In this document: piece after piece, positions 317 through 12,020 of the stretch | Numbering within the stretch: position 1 is the first letter of the stretch | Layout of the letters: each line of letters opens with the position of its first letter | From: Clostridiales bacterium | GTDB taxonomy: Bacteria > Bacillota > Clostridia > Oscillospirales > Acutalibacteraceae | Length of the DNA: 12,082 bases | Direction: 5' to 3' | Assembly: GCA_014799585.1 (NCBI GenBank) | Contig: JAAVHU010000007.1 | Coordinates: 23,516-35,597, forward strand | Position numbers and translations under genes: made by a program | Notes under the pieces: model-generated | What the model was told of the DNA's origin: nothing | The model's input: only the letters and a program-made list of their open reading frames with translations | The model's database searches: none

Positions 317-760
317 TCAGTACAATTTAAAAATATAAATAATCAATCCGTATAAAACCGAGCTTCCAACACCATAAACAATTACAGGGCCCGCAATGGA
401 AAACATCTGAGCAGCTGTGCCAAGCACCATACCCTCGTGCTTAAATTCAAGAGCAGGAGAAACAACTGAATTTGCAAAGCCTGTTATAGGAACAACCGTG
501 CCTGCTCCTGCATGGCGGGCAATCTTATCAAAGATACCGATACCTGTTAAAATTGCGGTTATAATAATGATAATGCTTGGAGTTGCAATTTTAACTTCTT
601 TTTCGTTAAGCCCTGCATTTTGAAAAACCATATTTAAAAGCTGAGCAAATGTACATATAAGTCCGCCTATCAAAAATGCTTTAATACAATTTAAAATGAT
701 AGGAGAATTCGGGCTTGCTTTGTCTGCCATTTTGCTGTATTCGTCTTTACTGATACTCAT
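317..760 (-). CDS. spoVAC: Stage V sporulation protein AC (SpoVAC)
   Basis: This 147-residue hydrophobic protein belongs to the SpoVAC/SpoVAEB family. In Bacillus, SpoVA proteins sit in the inner spore membrane and move Ca-dipicolinic acid into the forespore and out at germination; SpoVAC has been described there as a channel-like component. The short charged N-terminus (residues 1-20) is followed by a hydrophobic segment containing AFLIGGLICTFAQ (28-40), a second at about 62-76, the family signature GAGTVVPITGFANS (85-98), and C-terminal hydrophobic stretches (about 110-145). The length matches the usual 150 or so residues. The GAGGTG site at 768-773 is 7 nt before the ATG. In most spore formers spoVAC is directly followed by spoVAD and spoVAEB. 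Here an SCP2-like gene follows it, and the other two genes are 1.1 and 4.9 kb away. No clear sigma-G promoter was found upstream by eye. Confidence 0.93.
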   Translation of the reverse strand: MSISKDEYSKMADKASPNSPIILNCIKAFLIGGLICTFAQLLNMVFQNAGLNEKEVKIATPSIIIIITAILTGIGIFDKIARHAGAGTVVPITGFANSVVSPALEFKHEGMVLGTAAQMFSIAGPVIVYGVGSSVLYGLIIYIFKLY

Positions 761-2873: not shown

Positions 2874-5459
2874 ATGAAAAAGATTGTTGTTGGCGTATTA
2901 GCACATGTTGACTCTGGAAAAACTACGCTTTCCGAAGCATTATTATATCAATCAGGAAGCATAAATAAACTTGGACGAGTAGACCACAGGGATTCTTTTT
3001 TAGACACATTTTCTCTTGAACGTGACCGCGGAATAACGATTTTTTCAAAACAGGCTGTTTTGAAATACAAAGACACGGAATTCACCTTGCTTGACACACC
3101 GGGGCATGTTGATTTTTCTGCTGAAACCGAACGAACACTGCAAGTGCTTGATTACGCAATTTTAGTAATCAGCGGAACAGACGGTATTCAGAGCCATACA
3201 CAGACGCTTTGGAAATTATTATCCAAATACAATGTTCCCTGCTTTATTTTCATAAACAAAATGGACTTGGATGGTGCAGACCAAGACCGCATTTTAACTG
3301 AACTTAAAGCAAAATTCAATGACGGATGCGTTGATTTCGGTTGCAGTAATCAATCAGATTTATATGAAAACATTGCTGTATGCGATGAAAAACTTTTAAA
3401 TCAATATTATGAAAATGAAACCTTAAACAAAAACGATATTATAAATTGCATTAAAGAAAGAAAAATATTTCCCTGTCTTTTTGGTTCGGCATTAAAGCTG
3501 AACGGTGTTGAGGAATTTTTAGACTGCTTATATGATTACACAACAATGCCTAAATACACAAATGAGTTTGCAGGCAAGGTTTATAAAATCTCAGAAGATA
3601 AAGGACAGCGGTTAACTTTCTTAAAAGTTACAGGCGGAAGCCTTAAGGTTAAAGAAATTCTGAAATCAGACAAGAATAAAAATTCTGAAAAGGTAAATCA
3701 GATAAGAATTTATTCCGGAGAGCGGTTTTCAACGGTTGATGAAGCCGTTGCAGGTACGATTTGTGCTGTAATGGGAATTACCTTTACACAGTCGGGAGAC
3801 GGCTTAGGTACTGAAAAAAACAGCAGTTTACCTGTCTTAGAGCCTGTGCTTACATACAAATTGAATTTACCCGATACGGTTGATGCACATACAGCACTTG
3901 CCAAAATGAAAATACTTGAAAACGAAGATCCACAGTTAAAGGTTGTATGGAATGAACGGCTCAGCGAAATTCAAATTCAGCTTATGGGCGATATTCAGCT
4001 TGAGGTTCTTCAAACGATTATTCGTGAACGTTTTGGAATAGAAGCAACTTTCAGCAAAGGCAACATCATATATAAAGAAACCATATCCGACAAGATTGAG
4101 GGTATCGGTCATTTTGAGCCATTAAGACATTACGCCGAAGTTCATCTTTTGATGAAGCCTGCTAAAAGAGACAGCGGACTGATTTTTAAAGTTGACTGTA
4201 AAGAAGAAATACTTGACAAGAATTGGCAAAGGCTTATATTAACTCACCTTTATGAAAAAACACATATCGGTGTTTTAACAGGCTCGCCGATAACGGATAT
4301 GGAAATTACACTTGTTTCGGGCAGAGCTCATGCCAAGCATACCGAGGGTGGAGATTTCAGACAGGCTACCTACAGAGCTGTGCGGCAGGGACTTCGTTCT
4401 GCAAACAGCATTTTGCTTGAGCCGATTTATGAATTTGAATTGGAAGTTCCAACAGAAAATATAGGCAGAGCAATGACGGATATTCAGCGGATGTTCGGAA
4501 ACTTCAATCCGCCTGAAACAATCGGCGAATTTTCGGTTATCAGCGGTACGGCACCCGTTTCAACTATGTATGATTATTCAAGGGATGTTATGCAGTACAC
4601 CCACGGCAGAGGAAAGCTGATGTGCAGTTTAAAAGGCTACGAGCCTTGCCACAACACGGACGAGGTCATCCAAGAAATCGGATATGATTGTGATGGTGAT
4701 ACAGACAATCCTTGTGATTCCGTTTTCTGTTCGCACGGTGCAGGCTACAATGTGAAATGGAATGAAGTAAAAAGCCATATGCACCTGCCGAGTATATTAT
4801 CTGCACCAAAAAGTGAATATGTTAACACGGAAAGCAAAATAACATTTTCAAATTATAAAGACAAAAGTAATCTTTTTGCTCTTGATAAAGAGCTTATGCA
4901 GATTTTTGAGCAAACCTATGGTCCTGTTAAAAGCCGTTCTAACAATCCCGCTCAAAGTCATTTCACTTTTACCGAAAGCACGGAAAAGAAAAAATATAAA
5001 GGTAAGAAAACACCGAACTATGACGGCAAAGAGTATCTGCTTGTTGACGGCTACAATGTTATTTTTTCTTGGAACAATCTTAAGGATATAACAACAGAAG
5101 ATCTTGATGCAGCAAGAAATACGCTTATCAATATTCTTTGCAACTATCAGGGCTATAAAAGGTGTGAGGTCATTCTTGTTTTTGATGCGTACAAGGTTAA
5201 GGGCAATAACCGAGAGGTTGAAAAGGTAAACAATATAAATATTGTCTATACAAAGGAAGCTGAAACGGCGGATTTGTATATTGAAAAGGTATCACACGAG
5301 CTTGCAAAAAAGCATAGAGTCAGAGTTGTTACCTCTGATGCACTTGAACAGCTTATCATCCTCGGCAACGGTGCATTGCGTGTTTCTTCAAGAGAATTCC
5401 TTGCAGAAATTGAACAGGCAGAAGAAGATATACGTGAAATCATTTCTCAAAGGCATTAG
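2874..5459 (+). CDS. TetM-like ribosome-binding translational GTPase fused to a C-terminal YacP/Rae1-type NYN nuclease domain
   Basis: This 861-residue protein starts at the ATG at 2874, next to GGGGTGAG; an in-frame TTG at 2853 lacks a site. The N-terminal part is an EF-G/TetM-class GTPase with G1 AHVDSGKT (10-17), G2 RDRGITI (50-56), G3 DTPGH (74-78), G4 NKMD (128-131) and G5 GSA (204-206). EF-G-like domains II-V follow to about residue 590 (HGRGKLMCSLKGYE near domain V's end). Residues 590-720 form a Cys/His-containing segment (VFCSHGAGY) and a basic linker. Residues 720-861 match B. subtilis YacP/Rae1, an endonuclease that cuts mRNA in the ribosomal A site: LLVDGYN (722-728), VFDAYKVKG (D771), TKEAETAD (D800), VTSD (D822) and GNGALRVSSREF. 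TetM-family proteins enter the A site, so the two halves should reach the same place. Loop 484-495 (RAHAKHTEGGDF) lacks TetM's SPVSTP residues, so tetracycline protection is doubtful. The gene is monocistronic. Confidence 0.88.
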   Translation: MKKIVVGVLAHVDSGKTTLSEALLYQSGSINKLGRVDHRDSFLDTFSLERDRGITIFSKQAVLKYKDTEFTLLDTPGHVDFSAETERTLQVLDYAILVISGTDGIQSHTQTLWKLLSKYNVPCFIFINKMDLDGADQDRILTELKAKFNDGCVDFGCSNQSDLYENIAVCDEKLLNQYYENETLNKNDIINCIKERKIFPCLFGSALKLNGVEEFLDCLYDYTTMPKYTNEFAGKVYKISEDKGQRLTFLKVTGGSLKVKEILKSDKNKNSEKVNQIRIYSGERFSTVDEAVAGTICAVMGITFTQSGDGLGTEKNSSLPVLEPVLTYKLNLPDTVDAHTALAKMKILENEDPQLKVVWNERLSEIQIQLMGDIQLEVLQTIIRERFGIEATFSKGNIIYKETISDKIEGIGHFEPLRHYAEVHLLMKPAKRDSGLIFKVDCKEEILDKNWQRLILTHLYEKTHIGVLTGSPITDMEITLVSGRAHAKHTEGGDFRQATYRAVRQGLRSANSILLEPIYEFELEVPTENIGRAMTDIQRMFGNFNPPETIGEFSVISGTAPVSTMYDYSRDVMQYTHGRGKLMCSLKGYEPCHNTDEVIQEIGYDCDGDTDNPCDSVFCSHGAGYNVKWNEVKSHMHLPSILSAPKSEYVNTESKITFSNYKDKSNLFALDKELMQIFEQTYGPVKSRSNNPAQSHFTFTESTEKKKYKGKKTPNYDGKEYLLVDGYNVIFSWNNLKDITTEDLDAARNTLINILCNYQGYKRCEVILVFDAYKVKGNNREVEKVNNINIVYTKEAETADLYIEKVSHELAKKHRVRVVTSDALEQLIILGNGALRVSSREFLAEIEQAEEDIREIISQRH

Positions 5460-5460
5460 A

Positions 5461-5486
5461 AAAGGCACGGAATAATCCGTGCCTTT
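5461..5486. terminator. Bidirectional terminator between the TetM-NYN fusion and the spoVAD operon
   Basis: A perfect 10-bp stem AAAGGCACGG (5461-5470) / CCGTGCCTTT (5477-5486) has a 6-nt loop and lies between the two converging stop codons (5459 and 5488). The T run is short on either strand (TTTCTTATTT on plus, TTTTC on minus), so efficiency may be moderate. Confidence 0.8.
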
Positions 5487-5659: not shown

Positions 5660-6661
5660 CTACACCTCCAAAAGCACTGCATGGGCAACACCGGGAATGG
5701 GATTTCCCTGCTTGCTTGAGGTTGGGGACATCAATGCACCCGTTGCAACAAAAAGCACTTTTTTCAGCTTATTTTTTTTCATTTTCTTCATAATATGAGA
5801 GCAAAGCACAGAGCCTGAACAGCCACAGCCCGATCCACCGCTGTTTACATCCTGCTCTTCAAGGTCATAAATGAGCAATCCGCAGTCTTTGTGTTGTTTT
5901 CTGATATCAACCCCATGTTCATTTTCCATAAGCTCATACAGAAGTTCAGAGCCCGTTAAGCCCAAATCTCCTGTTAAAATCATATCGTAATCAGACGGCT
6001 TGGTGTTTGTGTCCCTCAAAAATTCATATATGGTCTTTTCCGCAGCAGGTGCCATAGCCGCACCCATATTATTTGCATCTGTTATGCCCATATCACAGAT
6101 TGTGCCGATTGATACTGCTTTGATTTTTATTCCGTCCCCCATGGAATGAATAACGGCAGAGCCTGCTCCCGTTACCGTCCACTGCGCGCTTGGCGGCCTT
6201 TGTCCGCCATATTCAAGCGGAAAGCGGAACTGCCTTTCAGACGAACAGAAATGGCTTGAAGTTGCCGCAACAACGCAATTTGCACCTGCATCCACAAGCA
6301 TTGAACCGACGCTGAGCGAAAGTGCCATCGTTGAACAAGCACCATAAAGACCGATTGACGGTATCTGCAAATCCTTTATTGCAAACGCACTGCCCATACA
6401 CTGATCAAGCAAATCACCGCTTAGAATAAAATCAACATCAGACGAGCTCACCTTTGCATTTGCAAGTGAACGAATAATTGCGTCATTCAGCATTGCCGAC
6501 TCAGCAAGCTCATATGACTGCTGCCCCATTGTTGTATCTTCAAAAATTGCATCAAAATCAGAAGCAAGCGGACCTTCACCCTCTTTTTTACCGCAAACAC
6601 CTGCCGAACCTGTTATGACAGGAGGATTATCAAAAAATATTGTTTTTCCTTTTATGTTCAT
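5660..6661 (-). CDS. spoVAD: Stage V sporulation protein AD (SpoVAD)
   Basis: This 333-residue protein has the thiolase-like fold of SpoVAD, which in Bacillus lies on the outer face of the inner spore membrane and binds dipicolinic acid for delivery through the other SpoVA proteins. Recognised segments are PPVITGSAGVCGKKEGEGPL (13-32), GSAFAIKDLQIPSIGLYGACSTM (91-113, with Cys109 at the thiolase-cysteine position), TSSHFCSSERQFRFPLEYGG (134-153), QRPPSAQWTVTGAGSAV and the C-terminal GALMSPTSSKQGNPIPGVAHA. The length matches the usual 335-340. The ATG at 6661 is chosen because GAGGTG is 6 nt upstream; the in-frame GTG at 6670 lies inside that site. The gene is separated from spoVAC and spoVAEB and is followed after one base by a 56-codon membrane-protein gene. 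Confidence 0.95.
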   Translation of the reverse strand: MNIKGKTIFFDNPPVITGSAGVCGKKEGEGPLASDFDAIFEDTTMGQQSYELAESAMLNDAIIRSLANAKVSSSDVDFILSGDLLDQCMGSAFAIKDLQIPSIGLYGACSTMALSLSVGSMLVDAGANCVVAATSSHFCSSERQFRFPLEYGGQRPPSAQWTVTGAGSAVIHSMGDGIKIKAVSIGTICDMGITDANNMGAAMAPAAEKTIYEFLRDTNTKPSDYDMILTGDLGLTGSELLYELMENEHGVDIRKQHKDCGLLIYDLEEQDVNSGGSGCGCSGSVLCSHIMKKMKKNKLKKVLFVATGALMSPTSSKQGNPIPGVAHAVLLEV

Positions 6662-6708
6662 AAAAAACACCTCGGTAATATCTTAACCGAAAAAATTGCA
6701 TTTATTGT

Positions 6709-8805: not shown

Positions 8806-10239
8806 TTATCCTAAAATTTCTTTTAAAACCTTTGTTACCTCTGCGGCGGGGGCTTTACCTCTTAACGCACGCATAGACTGACCGATAAGGAAATTGAAAG
8901 ATGCTTCCTTACCGCCCTTATATTCATCCACTGCCTTCTGATTATTTGCAAGCACTTCATCAATAACAGCTTTGATTGCACCTGTATCGGAAACCATTTC
9001 CATATTGTTTTCCTTAACATAATCAGCAGGAATAACATCATTTTCAAACACAGCCTTAAACACCTTTTTAGCTGAATCACGGCTGATTTTATTGCCATTC
9101 AGAAGATTGATAACCTCACCGAGAGAATCCATACGGAAGCTCATATTTTCAGGCAAAAGCTGATTTTCATTCATCATTTTCATCAGCTCGCCCATAATCC
9201 AGTTGGCACTATCCTTTGGATTCTTAGTTATCTCAACTGTTCTTTCAAACAATTTAACATAAGCAACGGAAGAGAATATCATTGAAATATCATATTCGGA
9301 AAGGCCGAATTCAGACATATAACGCTCTTTCTTTGCCTCAGGAAGCTCAGGAAGATTTTCTTTAATACTATTTACATATTCATCAGTAAGCTGAACAGGA
9401 GGCAAATCAGGATCAGGGAAATACTTATAATCCTGTGCATCTTCCTTACTTCTCATTGCATAAGAATAGCCTTTTGAATCATCCCAACGGCGTGTTTCCT
9501 GAACAACAGTTCCGCCGTCTTCAATAAGCTCTATCTGACGCTGAGCTTCGCTTTCAATTGCATTATGGATTGCTTTGAAAGAGTTTATATTTTTCATTTC
9601 CGTTCTTGTGCCATACTCTGTACTGCCCTTTTCCATAACGGAAACATTAACATCGGCACGAAGCGAGCCTTCCTGCATTTTACAGTCAGACACACCGCAG
9701 AACTGAAGAATAGAACGAAGTTTTTCAACATATTCAACAGCTTCATCAGCAGAAGCAATGTCAGGCTCTGAAACGATTTCAAGAAGCGGAACACCACAGC
9801 GGTTATAGTTTACAAGCGTGCAGTCTGACCATTCATCGTGAATGAGCTTACCTGCATCCTCTTCCATATGAATTTCGTGAATTCTAACCTTTTTCTTTCC
9901 GCCGTTAATACTATCGTTAATTTCAATATAACCGTTTCTGCAAATTGGAAGATAAAGCTGGCTAATCTGATAAGCCTTTGGCAAATCAGGATAGAAATAG
10001 TTTTTTCTATCAAATTTATTATACATTGTGATTTCACAATTTGTTGCAAGACCTGTTCTTACTGCAAATTCAAGCACCTTTTCGTTTAAAACAGGAAGTG
10101 TGCCCGGCATACCTGAGCAAATTTCACAAACGTGTGTATTCGGCTCACCGCCAAACTCCGTTGTGCAGGAGCAGAAAATTTTAGTTTTGGTTGCAAGTTC
10201 GGTATGAACTTCAAGACCGCATACGGTTGAATATTCCAT
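8806..10239 (-). CDS. gatB: Asp/Glu-tRNA amidotransferase subunit B (GatB)
   Basis: This 477-residue protein is the tRNA-binding and kinase-like subunit of the GatCAB amidotransferase, which converts Glu-tRNA(Gln) to Gln-tRNA(Gln) and Asp-tRNA(Asn) to Asn-tRNA(Asn) in the cytoplasm. The cradle domain shows VCGLEVHTEL (6-15; E10 and H12 are metal-site positions), a zinc knuckle with C23, C25, C38 and C41, the KNYFYPDLPKAYQISQ segment (about 69-84), RCGVPLLEIVSEPD (about 147-160) and GSLRADVNVSV (about 196-206). The C-terminal YqeY-like tail begins at about 330 and ends FNLIGQSMRALRGKAPAAEV. Length is normal. It is the last gene of the operon, 12 nt after gatA, with GGAGGAG before the ATG. Confidence 0.97.
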   Translation of the reverse strand: MEYSTVCGLEVHTELATKTKIFCSCTTEFGGEPNTHVCEICSGMPGTLPVLNEKVLEFAVRTGLATNCEITMYNKFDRKNYFYPDLPKAYQISQLYLPICRNGYIEINDSINGGKKKVRIHEIHMEEDAGKLIHDEWSDCTLVNYNRCGVPLLEIVSEPDIASADEAVEYVEKLRSILQFCGVSDCKMQEGSLRADVNVSVMEKGSTEYGTRTEMKNINSFKAIHNAIESEAQRQIELIEDGGTVVQETRRWDDSKGYSYAMRSKEDAQDYKYFPDPDLPPVQLTDEYVNSIKENLPELPEAKKERYMSEFGLSEYDISMIFSSVAYVKLFERTVEITKNPKDSANWIMGELMKMMNENQLLPENMSFRMDSLGEVINLLNGNKISRDSAKKVFKAVFENDVIPADYVKENNMEMVSDTGAIKAVIDEVLANNQKAVDEYKGGKEASFNFLIGQSMRALRGKAPAAEVTKVLKEILG

Positions 10240-10251
10240 ATTTTCTCCTCC

Positions 10252-11718
10252 TTAAACAAGATTTGGTTTCTGCTTATGATAGTCTGTTGCAGACTGATAA
10301 GCATTACCTGCTGAAAGAATTGTTTTTTCATCAAACGGTCTGCCGATAAGCTGCATACCAACAGGCATATTGTTTTTATCAAAGCCACAAGGTAATGCAA
10401 GGGACGGCAAGCCCGCAATATTAATCATAACTGTATAAATATCACCAAGATACATAGCAAGCGGATCACTTAAGCCCTCGCCCATTTTAAGCGCAGTTGT
10501 TGGCGCAACAGGGCCAAGAAGAAAATCATACTTTTCAAATGCTTCGTTGAATGCCTGAACAATAAGACCTTTAGCCTTAAGAGCCTTGATATAGTAAGCA
10601 TCAAAATATCCGCTTGAAAGCACGAAGTTACCAAGCATAATACGTTTTTTAACTTCCATACCGAAGCCCTCTGAACGTGATTTGAAGTAAACATCTCGAA
10701 GATTATCAGCCTCAGGAGATTTATAGCCATACTTGATACCATCAAATCTTGAAAGGTTTGAGCAGGCCTCTGCACAAGCTATAATATAATAGGTTGGAAT
10801 TGCATATTCAACAATAGGCATTGAGAATTCCTCAACCTCAGCACCAAGGGATTTGAGCGTTTCAGCAGCGTTCATAACGCTTTTAGCAACATCCTCATCA
10901 ATACCCTCACCGAAATAATCACTTGGAATACCTATCTTTTTGCCCTTTAAATCTGTTGTATTCTTAATATCATCAAGGCTGAACGGATTGCTATTCATTG
11001 AAGTTGCATCCTTATCGTCTTTTCCGCTGATAACAGAAAACATTGCTGCAACATCAAGAGCATCCTTACCGATAGGGCCAATCTGATCAAGAGAAGAAGC
11101 ATAAGCAATAAGACCATAACGGGAAACAGCACCATAGGTTGGCTTTAAGCCCGTTACACCGCAGAAAGAACAGGGCTGACGGATTGAACCGCCTGTATCA
11201 GAGCCAAGCGCAATAACGCTTTCATCGGCAGCAACAGCCGCAGCCGCACCGCCCGAAGAACCACCCGGAACTCTTGAAACATCCCAAGGATTCTTTGTTG
11301 CACCATAGAATGAGGTTTCCGTTGTTGAACCCATTGCGAATTCATCCATGTTTACCTTACCGCAAGGAACAATGCCTGCTGCATCAAGCTTTTTAATAAC
11401 AGTTGCATCATACGGCGGTTTAAAGTTGTGAAGAATTTTGGAAGAGCAGGATGTTATATCCCCTTTTGTGCAGATATTATCCTTAATTGCAACAGGAACA
11501 CCTGCAAGAACAGAGGTTGCATCTCCGCTTTCAATAAGTTTCTGCGCCTTTTCAGCTTTTTCAAGAGCAAGCTCTTTATCAAGATGTGTATAACAATTAT
11601 AGGTTTTATCCTTTTCTTCAACTGCCTTAGCAACGGATTGAACAGCATCCATGGCAGTAAATTCTTTATTTCTGATTTTTTCAGCCACTTCAAGAGCGGT
11701 CATTTCATAAATTTCCAT
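10252..11718 (-). CDS. gatA: Asp/Glu-tRNA amidotransferase subunit A (GatA)
   Basis: This 488-residue glutaminase subunit of GatCAB is an amidase-signature hydrolase that frees ammonia from glutamine (or asparagine) and passes it to GatB. The Ser-cisSer-Lys triad is intact: K79 (PVAIKDN), S154 (PGGSSGG) and nucleophile S178 (SDTGGSIRQP). Other family marks are CGKVNMDEFAMGS (119-131), NPWDVSRVPGG, FCGVTGLKPTYGAVSRYG (about 184-201), SSLDQIGPIG, and near the C-terminus AGLPSLALPCGF and MPVGMQLIGRPFDE. The length is that of normal GatA. The ribosome binding site GGAGG follows the gatC stop directly, and the intergenic gap is 14 nt. I see nothing unusual in the sequence. Confidence 0.97.
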   Translation of the reverse strand: MEIYEMTALEVAEKIRNKEFTAMDAVQSVAKAVEEKDKTYNCYTHLDKELALEKAEKAQKLIESGDATSVLAGVPVAIKDNICTKGDITSCSSKILHNFKPPYDATVIKKLDAAGIVPCGKVNMDEFAMGSTTETSFYGATKNPWDVSRVPGGSSGGAAAAVAADESVIALGSDTGGSIRQPCSFCGVTGLKPTYGAVSRYGLIAYASSLDQIGPIGKDALDVAAMFSVISGKDDKDATSMNSNPFSLDDIKNTTDLKGKKIGIPSDYFGEGIDEDVAKSVMNAAETLKSLGAEVEEFSMPIVEYAIPTYYIIACAEACSNLSRFDGIKYGYKSPEADNLRDVYFKSRSEGFGMEVKKRIMLGNFVLSSGYFDAYYIKALKAKGLIVQAFNEAFEKYDFLLGPVAPTTALKMGEGLSDPLAMYLGDIYTVMINIAGLPSLALPCGFDKNNMPVGMQLIGRPFDEKTILSAGNAYQSATDYHKQKPNLV

Positions 11719-11732
11719 TCTATCCGCCCTCC

Positions 11733-12020
11733 TTAATCAACTGTTTTCGGAACAACAAAGGCTCCGTCCTGACTCTCAGGTGCGTTTGCAACGATTTCAT
11801 CAGGCGTCATTGAAGCCTTTACTTCATCGGCACGAAGCACATTTGTAAGCGGGAATGAATGGCTCATTGCTTCAACACCCTCTGTGTCAAGCTCATTCAA
11901 CTTGTCTATATAAGTAAGAATATCCTGCAATTCATTGCCAACCTTTTTTTCTTCCTCTTCGGAAAGGGTTATTCTTGCAAGGGATTCAAGATATTTAATT
12001 AATTCGGGAGTAATCTTCAT
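11733..12020 (-). CDS. gatC: Asp/Glu-tRNA amidotransferase subunit C (GatC)
   Basis: This 95-residue protein is the small GatCAB subunit that wraps around the GatA-GatB interface and stabilises GatA. Features are the N-terminal KITPELIKYLESLARITLSE (2-21), the central ELQDILTYIDKLNELDTEGV (30-49) and the C-terminal LRADEVKASM (62-71) with PESQDGAFVVPKTVD (81-95); this RADE...FVVP pattern is diagnostic. AAGGTGG lies 8 nt before the ATG and inside the possible end of an upstream frame that stops 2 nt before gatC. It begins the gatC-gatA-gatB order. The presence of GatCAB suggests that this organism forms Gln-tRNA(Gln), and perhaps Asn-tRNA(Asn), indirectly. Confidence 0.96.
   Translation of the reverse strand: MKITPELIKYLESLARITLSEEEEKKVGNELQDILTYIDKLNELDTEGVEAMSHSFPLTNVLRADEVKASMTPDEIVANAPESQDGAFVVPKTVD

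Follow-up and report, generated by a model that had tools for sequence, protein, structure and literature searches.

Rae1 (YacP) is described, in the passages that bear on it in three papers, as a translation-dependent mRNA endonuclease (PMC6613710, PMC11780869, PMC10100781). According to the same passages, the swarming defect of an efp mutant is suppressed when either rae1 or yacO (rlmB), which neighbours it in the operon, is lost (PMC6613710), and the Bacillus subtilis protein is proposed, in a discussion of chloramphenicol, to act on long-stalled ribosomes (PMC10100781). The sections of Atkinson 2015 that deal with the YacP-like NYN domain report that it was acquired by the Tet proteins of ten Clostridiales, and suggest a resistance mechanism based on an RNase (PMC4342817). 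We analysed here a gene of this architecture, found in a stretch of 12,082 nucleotides from a Clostridiales bacterium (assembly GCA_014799585.1, contig JAAVHU010000007.1, positions 23,516 to 35,597 of the forward strand), called the window below. The gene, at positions 2874 to 5459 of the plus strand, encodes an 861-amino-acid protein in which an EF-G/Tet-type translational GTPase is fused to a Rae1/YacP NYN nuclease (open reading frame (ORF) and Pfam). The fused architecture has been in print since 2015; what is new is the replacement of Rae1 by the fusion, and the distinctness of the fusion from Tet proteins. An earlier note on the window, made from its letters, knew of no experimental description. 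That part stands, as no experiment on the fusion was found in the open-licence literature, which misses most subscription journals, but the fusion itself had been noted, in the relevant sections of Atkinson 2015, the one description found in that literature (PMC4342817).

Both halves of the protein are complete and lie in one frame, as the earlier note had claimed. The open frame runs from 2874 to 5456, with its stop at 5457-5459, and the GTPase reads in frame into the NYN_YacP (Rae1) domain. Pfam places GTP_EFTU at residues 4-223, EF-G_D2 at 232-311, EFG_III at 323-394, EFG_IV at 397-511 and EFG_C at 514-594, and the NYN_YacP domain predicted for the C-terminal residues is matched at 722-859 (E = 1.3e-50, positions 1-140 of the 166 of profile PF05991). 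All features of the gene are on the plus strand. The G domain (residues 1-225, 2874 to 3548; PF00009, E = 6e-52) has all five G motifs by motif counts, and is followed by domains II and III (230-395, 3561 to 4058; PF22042, PF14492), domain IV (396-511, 4059 to 4406; PF03764) and domain V (512-594, 4407 to 4655; PF00679), so that the first half has the domains G, II, III, IV and V and the intact G motifs of an EF2-type translational GTPase. Beyond it come a C-terminal extension (595-640, 4656 to 4793; alignment), containing ...SVFCSHGAGYNVKW...MH and specific to the family, a linker (641-719, 4794 to 5030) of poor conservation (0.37) and very low model confidence, and the NYN_YacP/Rae1 domain (720-861, 5031 to 5456; PF05991; 5mq8/5mq9). 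Searched against the PDB, the whole protein retrieves TetO (E = 1e-74), EF-G and TetM, and its C-terminal part retrieves B. subtilis YacP (5mq8 and 5mq9, E = 8e-28). In the AlphaFold model the individual domains are folded (mean predicted local distance difference test score (pLDDT) 75.8), with pLDDT below 50 across most of residues 612-713; the best 50 Foldseek matches of this model are nearly all EF-G or its near relatives, many of them ribosome-bound.

In a class sample of 194 genomes (selected at 97% completeness, with the window's own genome at 68% added), 70 genomes carry the fusion, 62 have free Rae1 only, 62 have neither, and none has both. NYN_YacP exceeds its cut-off in 132 of the 194, with exactly one match in each, and the free genes are open frames of 160-216 amino acids. 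The exclusion between fusion and free Rae1 gives a Fisher's p of 7e-16 when kinship is ignored. Given the kinship of the genomes and the single copy of the gene in each carrier, a better argument is the alternation of fused and free forms within single genera, namely g56, g51 and g111 (the fusion of g111 being split over contigs). The presence of the fusion in so many genomes of the class, over many families, also means that it is conserved and is not two genes joined by error: alignment A1, window included, has 38 members, and NYN is in frame in 37, the remaining one being a Lactobacillus protein that naturally lacks NYN. A sequencing error at the junction was accordingly rejected. Of the 70 fusions, four are interrupted in their assemblies, two by a frame change or stop (G102, G246) and two over contigs (G228, G212). 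Within the genus of the window, 30 of 37 genomes have the fusion, including the window's own (three of these as fragments only), and the remaining seven have no NYN_YacP match at all. In a phylum sample, the protein (P0001) is matched at 1e-100 in 27 of 299 genomes, fusions and NYN-less proteins mixed and some from the same class. A further NYN match turned up in two genomes of a 393-genome sample, G340 and G426, the latter having the fusion and fragments of a second NYN copy. EF-G is encoded separately, with a match over cut-off in 28 of the 28 fusion genomes checked.

The chromosomal position of free rae1 gives this exclusion a more concrete form. In six genomes (G270, G162, G202, G219, G109, G151) the free gene is flanked by rlmB and by a sigma factor gene, which is sigH by position and has sigma-70 regions 2 and 4 in Pfam. 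Upstream of this slot, all six have the mini-RNase III gene (mrnC), and four of them (G270, G162, G202, G219) also have a cysteinyl-tRNA synthetase gene farther upstream, which in G162 and G219 is separated from mrnC by an extra ORF. In G173 and G130, rae1 adjoins sigH, and another stretch separates both from rlmB. We inspected the surroundings of rlmB in 13 fusion genomes. In nine (G081, G230, G176, G294, G247, G254, G246, G134, G248), sigH follows rlmB and there is no intact rae1, the fusion itself being interrupted in G246; in the other four (G191, G298, G049 and the window's own, G000) rlmB stands in different surroundings. The fusion gene lies outside the rlmB-rae1-sigH position, and is thus not placed as a free rae1 would be. 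Two slots are decayed rather than empty. That of G081 holds a rae1 remnant in two pieces, one with six in-frame stops and the other in a different frame, the first 47 residues being unmatched, and that of G426, a 14th fusion carrier, holds a remnant with a stop and some 60 middle residues unmatched. Of the 83 NYN queries, the one nearest to both remnants is free Rae1 from G109, a genome of the same genus as G081, which has free rae1 only and no fusion. Judged from the sequences, the slots look like the outcome of a reciprocal loss of two redundant genes, and this pattern is our main reason to believe that the fused nuclease does the job of Rae1; the earlier note's idea of a ribosome-directed nuclease is backed by the same swap. 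As a separate observation, in G247 (L259, L180) the fusion lies about 3.5 kilobases from sigH and 4.7 kilobases from rlmB, unlike in the other 12 carriers with rlmB located.

The residues expected to matter are conserved in both halves. For alignment and trees, 51 fusions were picked for spread from those fetched, and two NYN-less proteins were omitted (L170, partial, and G259, in two pieces). The aspartates D725, D771, D800 and D822, singled out in the earlier note, are retained in 51 of 51 fused and 32 of 32 free NYN sequences, and N728 and E804 are equally invariant. In the G motifs, D13, G15, K16, T17, DTPGH (74-78), N128, K129, D131, G204 and A206 are invariant in the 51 fusions, and H11 (49/51), T55 (50/51) and S205 (47/51) nearly so. 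Of the domains of the fusion, domain IV shows the highest conservation (0.82, versus 0.64-0.69 in the remaining GTPase domains, 27 fusions), whereas it does not stand out in the EF-G proteins encoded by the same 27 genomes (0.83 versus 0.80-0.93 elsewhere; G190, which has no full EF-G locus, was omitted from this control, and the rows start at a chosen methionine, such that the first residues may be missing). Domain IV of EF-G reaches into the A site, to the decoding centre. The part of the fusion that matches it is, by this measure of sequence conservation, under special constraint. Its first tip loop (residues 410-424, 4101 to 4145; GIGHFEPLRHYAEVH) has H413, E415, P416, H419, Y420 and E422 in all 51 fusions and in the 16 aligned NYN-less relatives. 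The second (residues 483-496, 4320 to 4361; GRAHAKHTEGGDFR) has a conserved xHxKHTxGGDFR where Tet proteins have YYSPVSTPADFR, a loop absent here, K488 being aligned with the Tet proline. The tip GHFEPLRHYAEV and the C-terminal extension with SVFCxxG are family-specific within this comparison, the extension (595-640) not being found in the Tet and EF-G rows compared. This extension (4656-4793), with SVFCSHGAG and ending in MH, is common to the fusions and their NYN-less relatives.

Trees, drawn with a midpoint root, bear on the origin of the fusion. In the GTPase tree, the 51 fusions and 16 NYN-less relatives group together (67 rows, 100/99), apart from Tet, intermediate Tet-like proteins and EF-G; of canonical-type Tet proteins and EF-G, only two rows and one row were used for comparison, and the EF-G branch is flagged as long. 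The label 'TetM-like' of the earlier note is loose for a protein with a clade of its own and different domain IV tips. Inside the group the fusions form a clade (100/100), in which the sole NYN-less row is the Lactobacillus hamsteri protein. The fused domains also form a clade (100/100) in the NYN tree, together with the free NYN of G265. Because it is nested in the fused clade, away from rlmB and with no GTPase remnant found beside it, this free domain looks like the product of a fission. A single fused NYN, F_L178 (G254), is placed among the free ones, on a long branch, and is possibly a second fusion or an artefact. The distances in the two halves co-vary (Mantel r = 0.75, none of 2000 permutations as high, 50 fusions without F_L178). 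A single ancient fusion, with later loss and replacement and one fission, would account for nearly all rows.

On these grounds, we consider that the fusion is probably a single-chain Rae1 with its own ribosome-binding GTPase, which cuts mRNA on paused ribosomes and has supplanted free Rae1. By analogy with EF-G and Tet, the GTPase half would dock in the ribosomal A site, most likely that of paused ribosomes, and the conserved tips of domain IV would reach the decoding centre. Through the tether, docking would carry the NYN nuclease to the mRNA in the A site, the nuclease would cut, and GTP hydrolysis would probably release the factor. In carrier lineages, the free Rae1 encoded after rlmB would have been replaced by the fusion. 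It is in this sense that we infer ribosome binding, an mRNA substrate, control by GTP and a trigger. A more specific version, which we put forward tentatively and with less confidence, is that of a GTP-clocked mRNA endonuclease: an empty or blocked A site would be recognised via the HFEPLRHYAEV and KHTEGGDF tips together with the HGAG-containing C-terminal extension, and the Rae1 cut would be timed by the binding and hydrolysis of GTP. The fusion would then define a subfamily of translational GTPases distinct from both Tet and EF-G, and would have displaced free Rae1 in many Clostridia.

A number of observations weigh against the proposal that the fusion is a single-chain Rae1. NYN_YacP is single-copy in all 132 carriers, so that the exclusion is in part a one-copy rule, and 62 of the 194 genomes live with neither form. 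G340, which is outside the sample of 194, has the fusion together with an intact rae1 in the slot. A NYN-less GTPase relative is present in at least 15 of the 194 genomes (at most four candidates per genome were scored, at E 1e-60, which makes the NYN-less and tet-like counts lower bounds), four of which lack any NYN, and the L. hamsteri genome has no NYN_YacP match. In these relatives, too, domain IV is more conserved than the other GTPase domains (0.75 versus 0.57-0.65); the constraint is thus independent of the nuclease, which argues against a mere delivery role, and the GTPase, as its conservation indicates, is more than a delivery handle. None of the gene neighbours ties the fusion to rescue, and the predicted template modelling score of the AlphaFold model (0.48) allows no claim on the placement of the nuclease. 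A strict partnership between NYN-less GTPase and free Rae1 was also considered and set aside: the two occur together in 11 of the 15 genomes, which is not significant (p = 0.096). One genome, G162, has two NYN-less GTPase copies (L159, L160) beside free Rae1.

Some of these points would fit better with a protein that has two jobs in one chain, the GTPase acting alone on ribosomes (for example in pause resolution or ligand displacement) and the Rae1 domain being merely carried and cutting without GTP control. This scenario would account for the 16 aligned NYN-less relatives, in which the domain IV tips and the extension are retained, and for those in four of 15 genomes and in L. hamsteri that live without any NYN. 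The linker is long and poorly conserved, and the free NYN of G265, coming from inside the fused clade, suggests that the nuclease can live apart again. However, many families have retained the fusion, and only one of the 32 free NYN rows of the tree points to a fission. We regard this scenario as unlikely. Less likely still, in our estimation, would be a role in processing rRNA or tRNA, in which the GTPase would position the nuclease on ribosomal or precursor RNA. Such a role was proposed earlier for the NYN domain, as cited in a passage of Atkinson 2015 (PMC4342817), and free rae1 adjoins rlmB, an rRNA methyltransferase gene, and lies near the mini-RNase III gene. Against it, the later papers, in the passages cited above, give Rae1 as a translation-dependent mRNA endonuclease (PMC6613710, PMC11780869, PMC10100781), and the 62 of 194 genomes without either form indicate that the NYN gene is dispensable for RNA maturation; we hold it to be very improbable.

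A ribosome protection linked to antibiotics, in which a ribosome-binding drug, be it tetracycline or a different ligand of the A site, is expelled by the GTPase and mRNA is cleared, or rRNA cut, by the nuclease, seems to us doubtful, slightly more so than two independent jobs. It would agree with the family relation to Tet, with the RNase-based resistance suggested in Atkinson 2015, and with the long-stalled ribosomes proposed as targets of Rae1 in the chloramphenicol discussion, both as worded in the passages cited above (PMC4342817, PMC10100781). The score with the Tet model NF012153 of NCBIfam is nevertheless 431.6 bits for a cut-off of 775. Four NYN-less relatives (393-442), the second fusion scanned (432) and three intermediate Tet-like proteins (561-606) all miss this cut-off as well, and the controls L174 (1001) and L194 (853) pass it. 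In place of the Tet tip YYSPVS, the fusion has xHxKHT, and the position of the Tet proline, which we take to lie near the drug site, is occupied by K in 50 of 51 fusions and by R in one. A separate tet-like gene is present in at least seven of the 70 fusion genomes, and matches only residues 1 to about 592, with some 30% identity. Moreover, no sign of a long attenuation leader was seen upstream of the fusion, and presence in 30 of the 37 genomes of the genus would be unlike an acquired resistance gene. Judged by its Tet score, its replaced tip loop and its separate clade, the fusion is probably not a tetracycline-resistance protein. The earlier note had also expected annotation pipelines to call it one. 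This was not borne out, at least for the NCBI pipeline, given a score far under the Tet cut-off, and a Monoglobus pectinilyticus protein, 60% identical, is annotated at NCBI as a 'translation factor GTPase family protein'.

The signals around the gene suggest, as far as matches to consensus go, a one-gene unit without a long leader. A promoter-like TTTACA-17-TATGAT, with a TG before the second hexamer, is found at 2816 to 2844 (10 of 12 matches in a consensus scan); the region has 13 such sites versus 8.8 +/- 2.8 in shuffles, which makes the site only suggestive. The leader starting from it would be of about 25 nucleotides, too short for a tet-type attenuator. A Shine-Dalgarno-like GGGGTGAG, read in the sequence and presumably functional, lies at 2863 to 2870, with the ATG 3 nucleotides downstream, and a terminator-like hairpin of 11 pairs (5461 to 5486, scan) stands right behind the stop; with two such hairpins versus 2.2 +/- 1.5 in shuffles, the argument here is the position and not the count. 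Rfam and tRNA scans of the window gave no match. In the linker, a short motif, LFALDKELMQIFEQTYGPVK (residues 667-686, 4872 to 4931), whose core pattern matches 29 of the 51 fusions, is possibly a docking motif for some partner.

Around the fusion gene, the window has spoVA genes and genes for an ABC ATPase, a DUF4275 protein, a PHP protein, a methyltransferase and a YjbR protein. No specific operon partner of the fusion recurs across families (18 same-genus, 20 other fusion and 16 NYN-less loci). Genes of spoVA are near the fusion in six to seven of the 18 same-genus loci, window included, and ABC ATPases, which form a large superfamily, in seven of the 18 same-genus, two of the 20 other fusion and five of the 16 NYN-less loci. 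The SpoVAC/SpoVAEB and SpoVAD genes of the window (317-760, 1824-2180, 5660-6670) are on different strands, split by the ABC ATPase and the fusion gene, and the group looks broken up. None of the ORFs listed next to the ABC transporter ATPase (877-1623) is an obvious permease, and the DUF4275 gene (2197-2727) lies on the opposite strand, immediately before the fusion gene. On the minus strand, 8806-12020 looks by eye like what we take to be gatB, gatA and gatC. Elsewhere, a Spirochaetes metagenome-assembled genome (L078) has tandem EF-G-like GTPase genes, at 736-2931 and 3082-5142 (731 and 686 amino acids).

If the proposal of a single-chain Rae1 is correct, about one third of the class genomes sampled would have a translation factor that brings its own mRNA cutter to the ribosome, and Rae1, whose entry route into the A site is only proposed, would gain a natural GTPase partner in cis. 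A protein group hitherto filed under tetracycline resistance would be explained, and Tet-like matches in metagenomes would not necessarily be resistance genes.

Among the known systems, Tet(M) and Tet(O) share with the fusion the G-II-III-IV-V order and some 29-30% identity over 590 residues; in contrast to them, the fusion lacks the Tet tip loop, has the C-terminal extension and the NYN domain, scores under the cut-off, and belongs to a separate clade. EF-G provides nearly all of the top Foldseek matches, and its domain IV is about equally conserved, but its tip loops differ from those of the fusion, and it is present separately in the fusion genomes checked. The whole NYN domain, with its conserved acids, is that of Rae1/YacP of B. 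subtilis (PF05991; 5mq8, 5mq9). Free Rae1 differs by its size (about 170 amino acids), by the lack of a GTPase and, in the free-gene genomes examined, by the place of its gene beside sigH and mostly directly after rlmB; the fusion lies elsewhere, and seems to have taken over from the free gene. The NYN-bearing 'Tet' proteins of ten Clostridiales have the same domain architecture and, on the sections of Atkinson 2015 that describe them, very probably belong to the same family as the fusion of the window (PMC4342817). These sections count ten species, class the proteins as Tet and suggest drug resistance, whereas in our analysis the fusions are frequent, form with NYN-less relatives a clade of their own, and exclude free Rae1.

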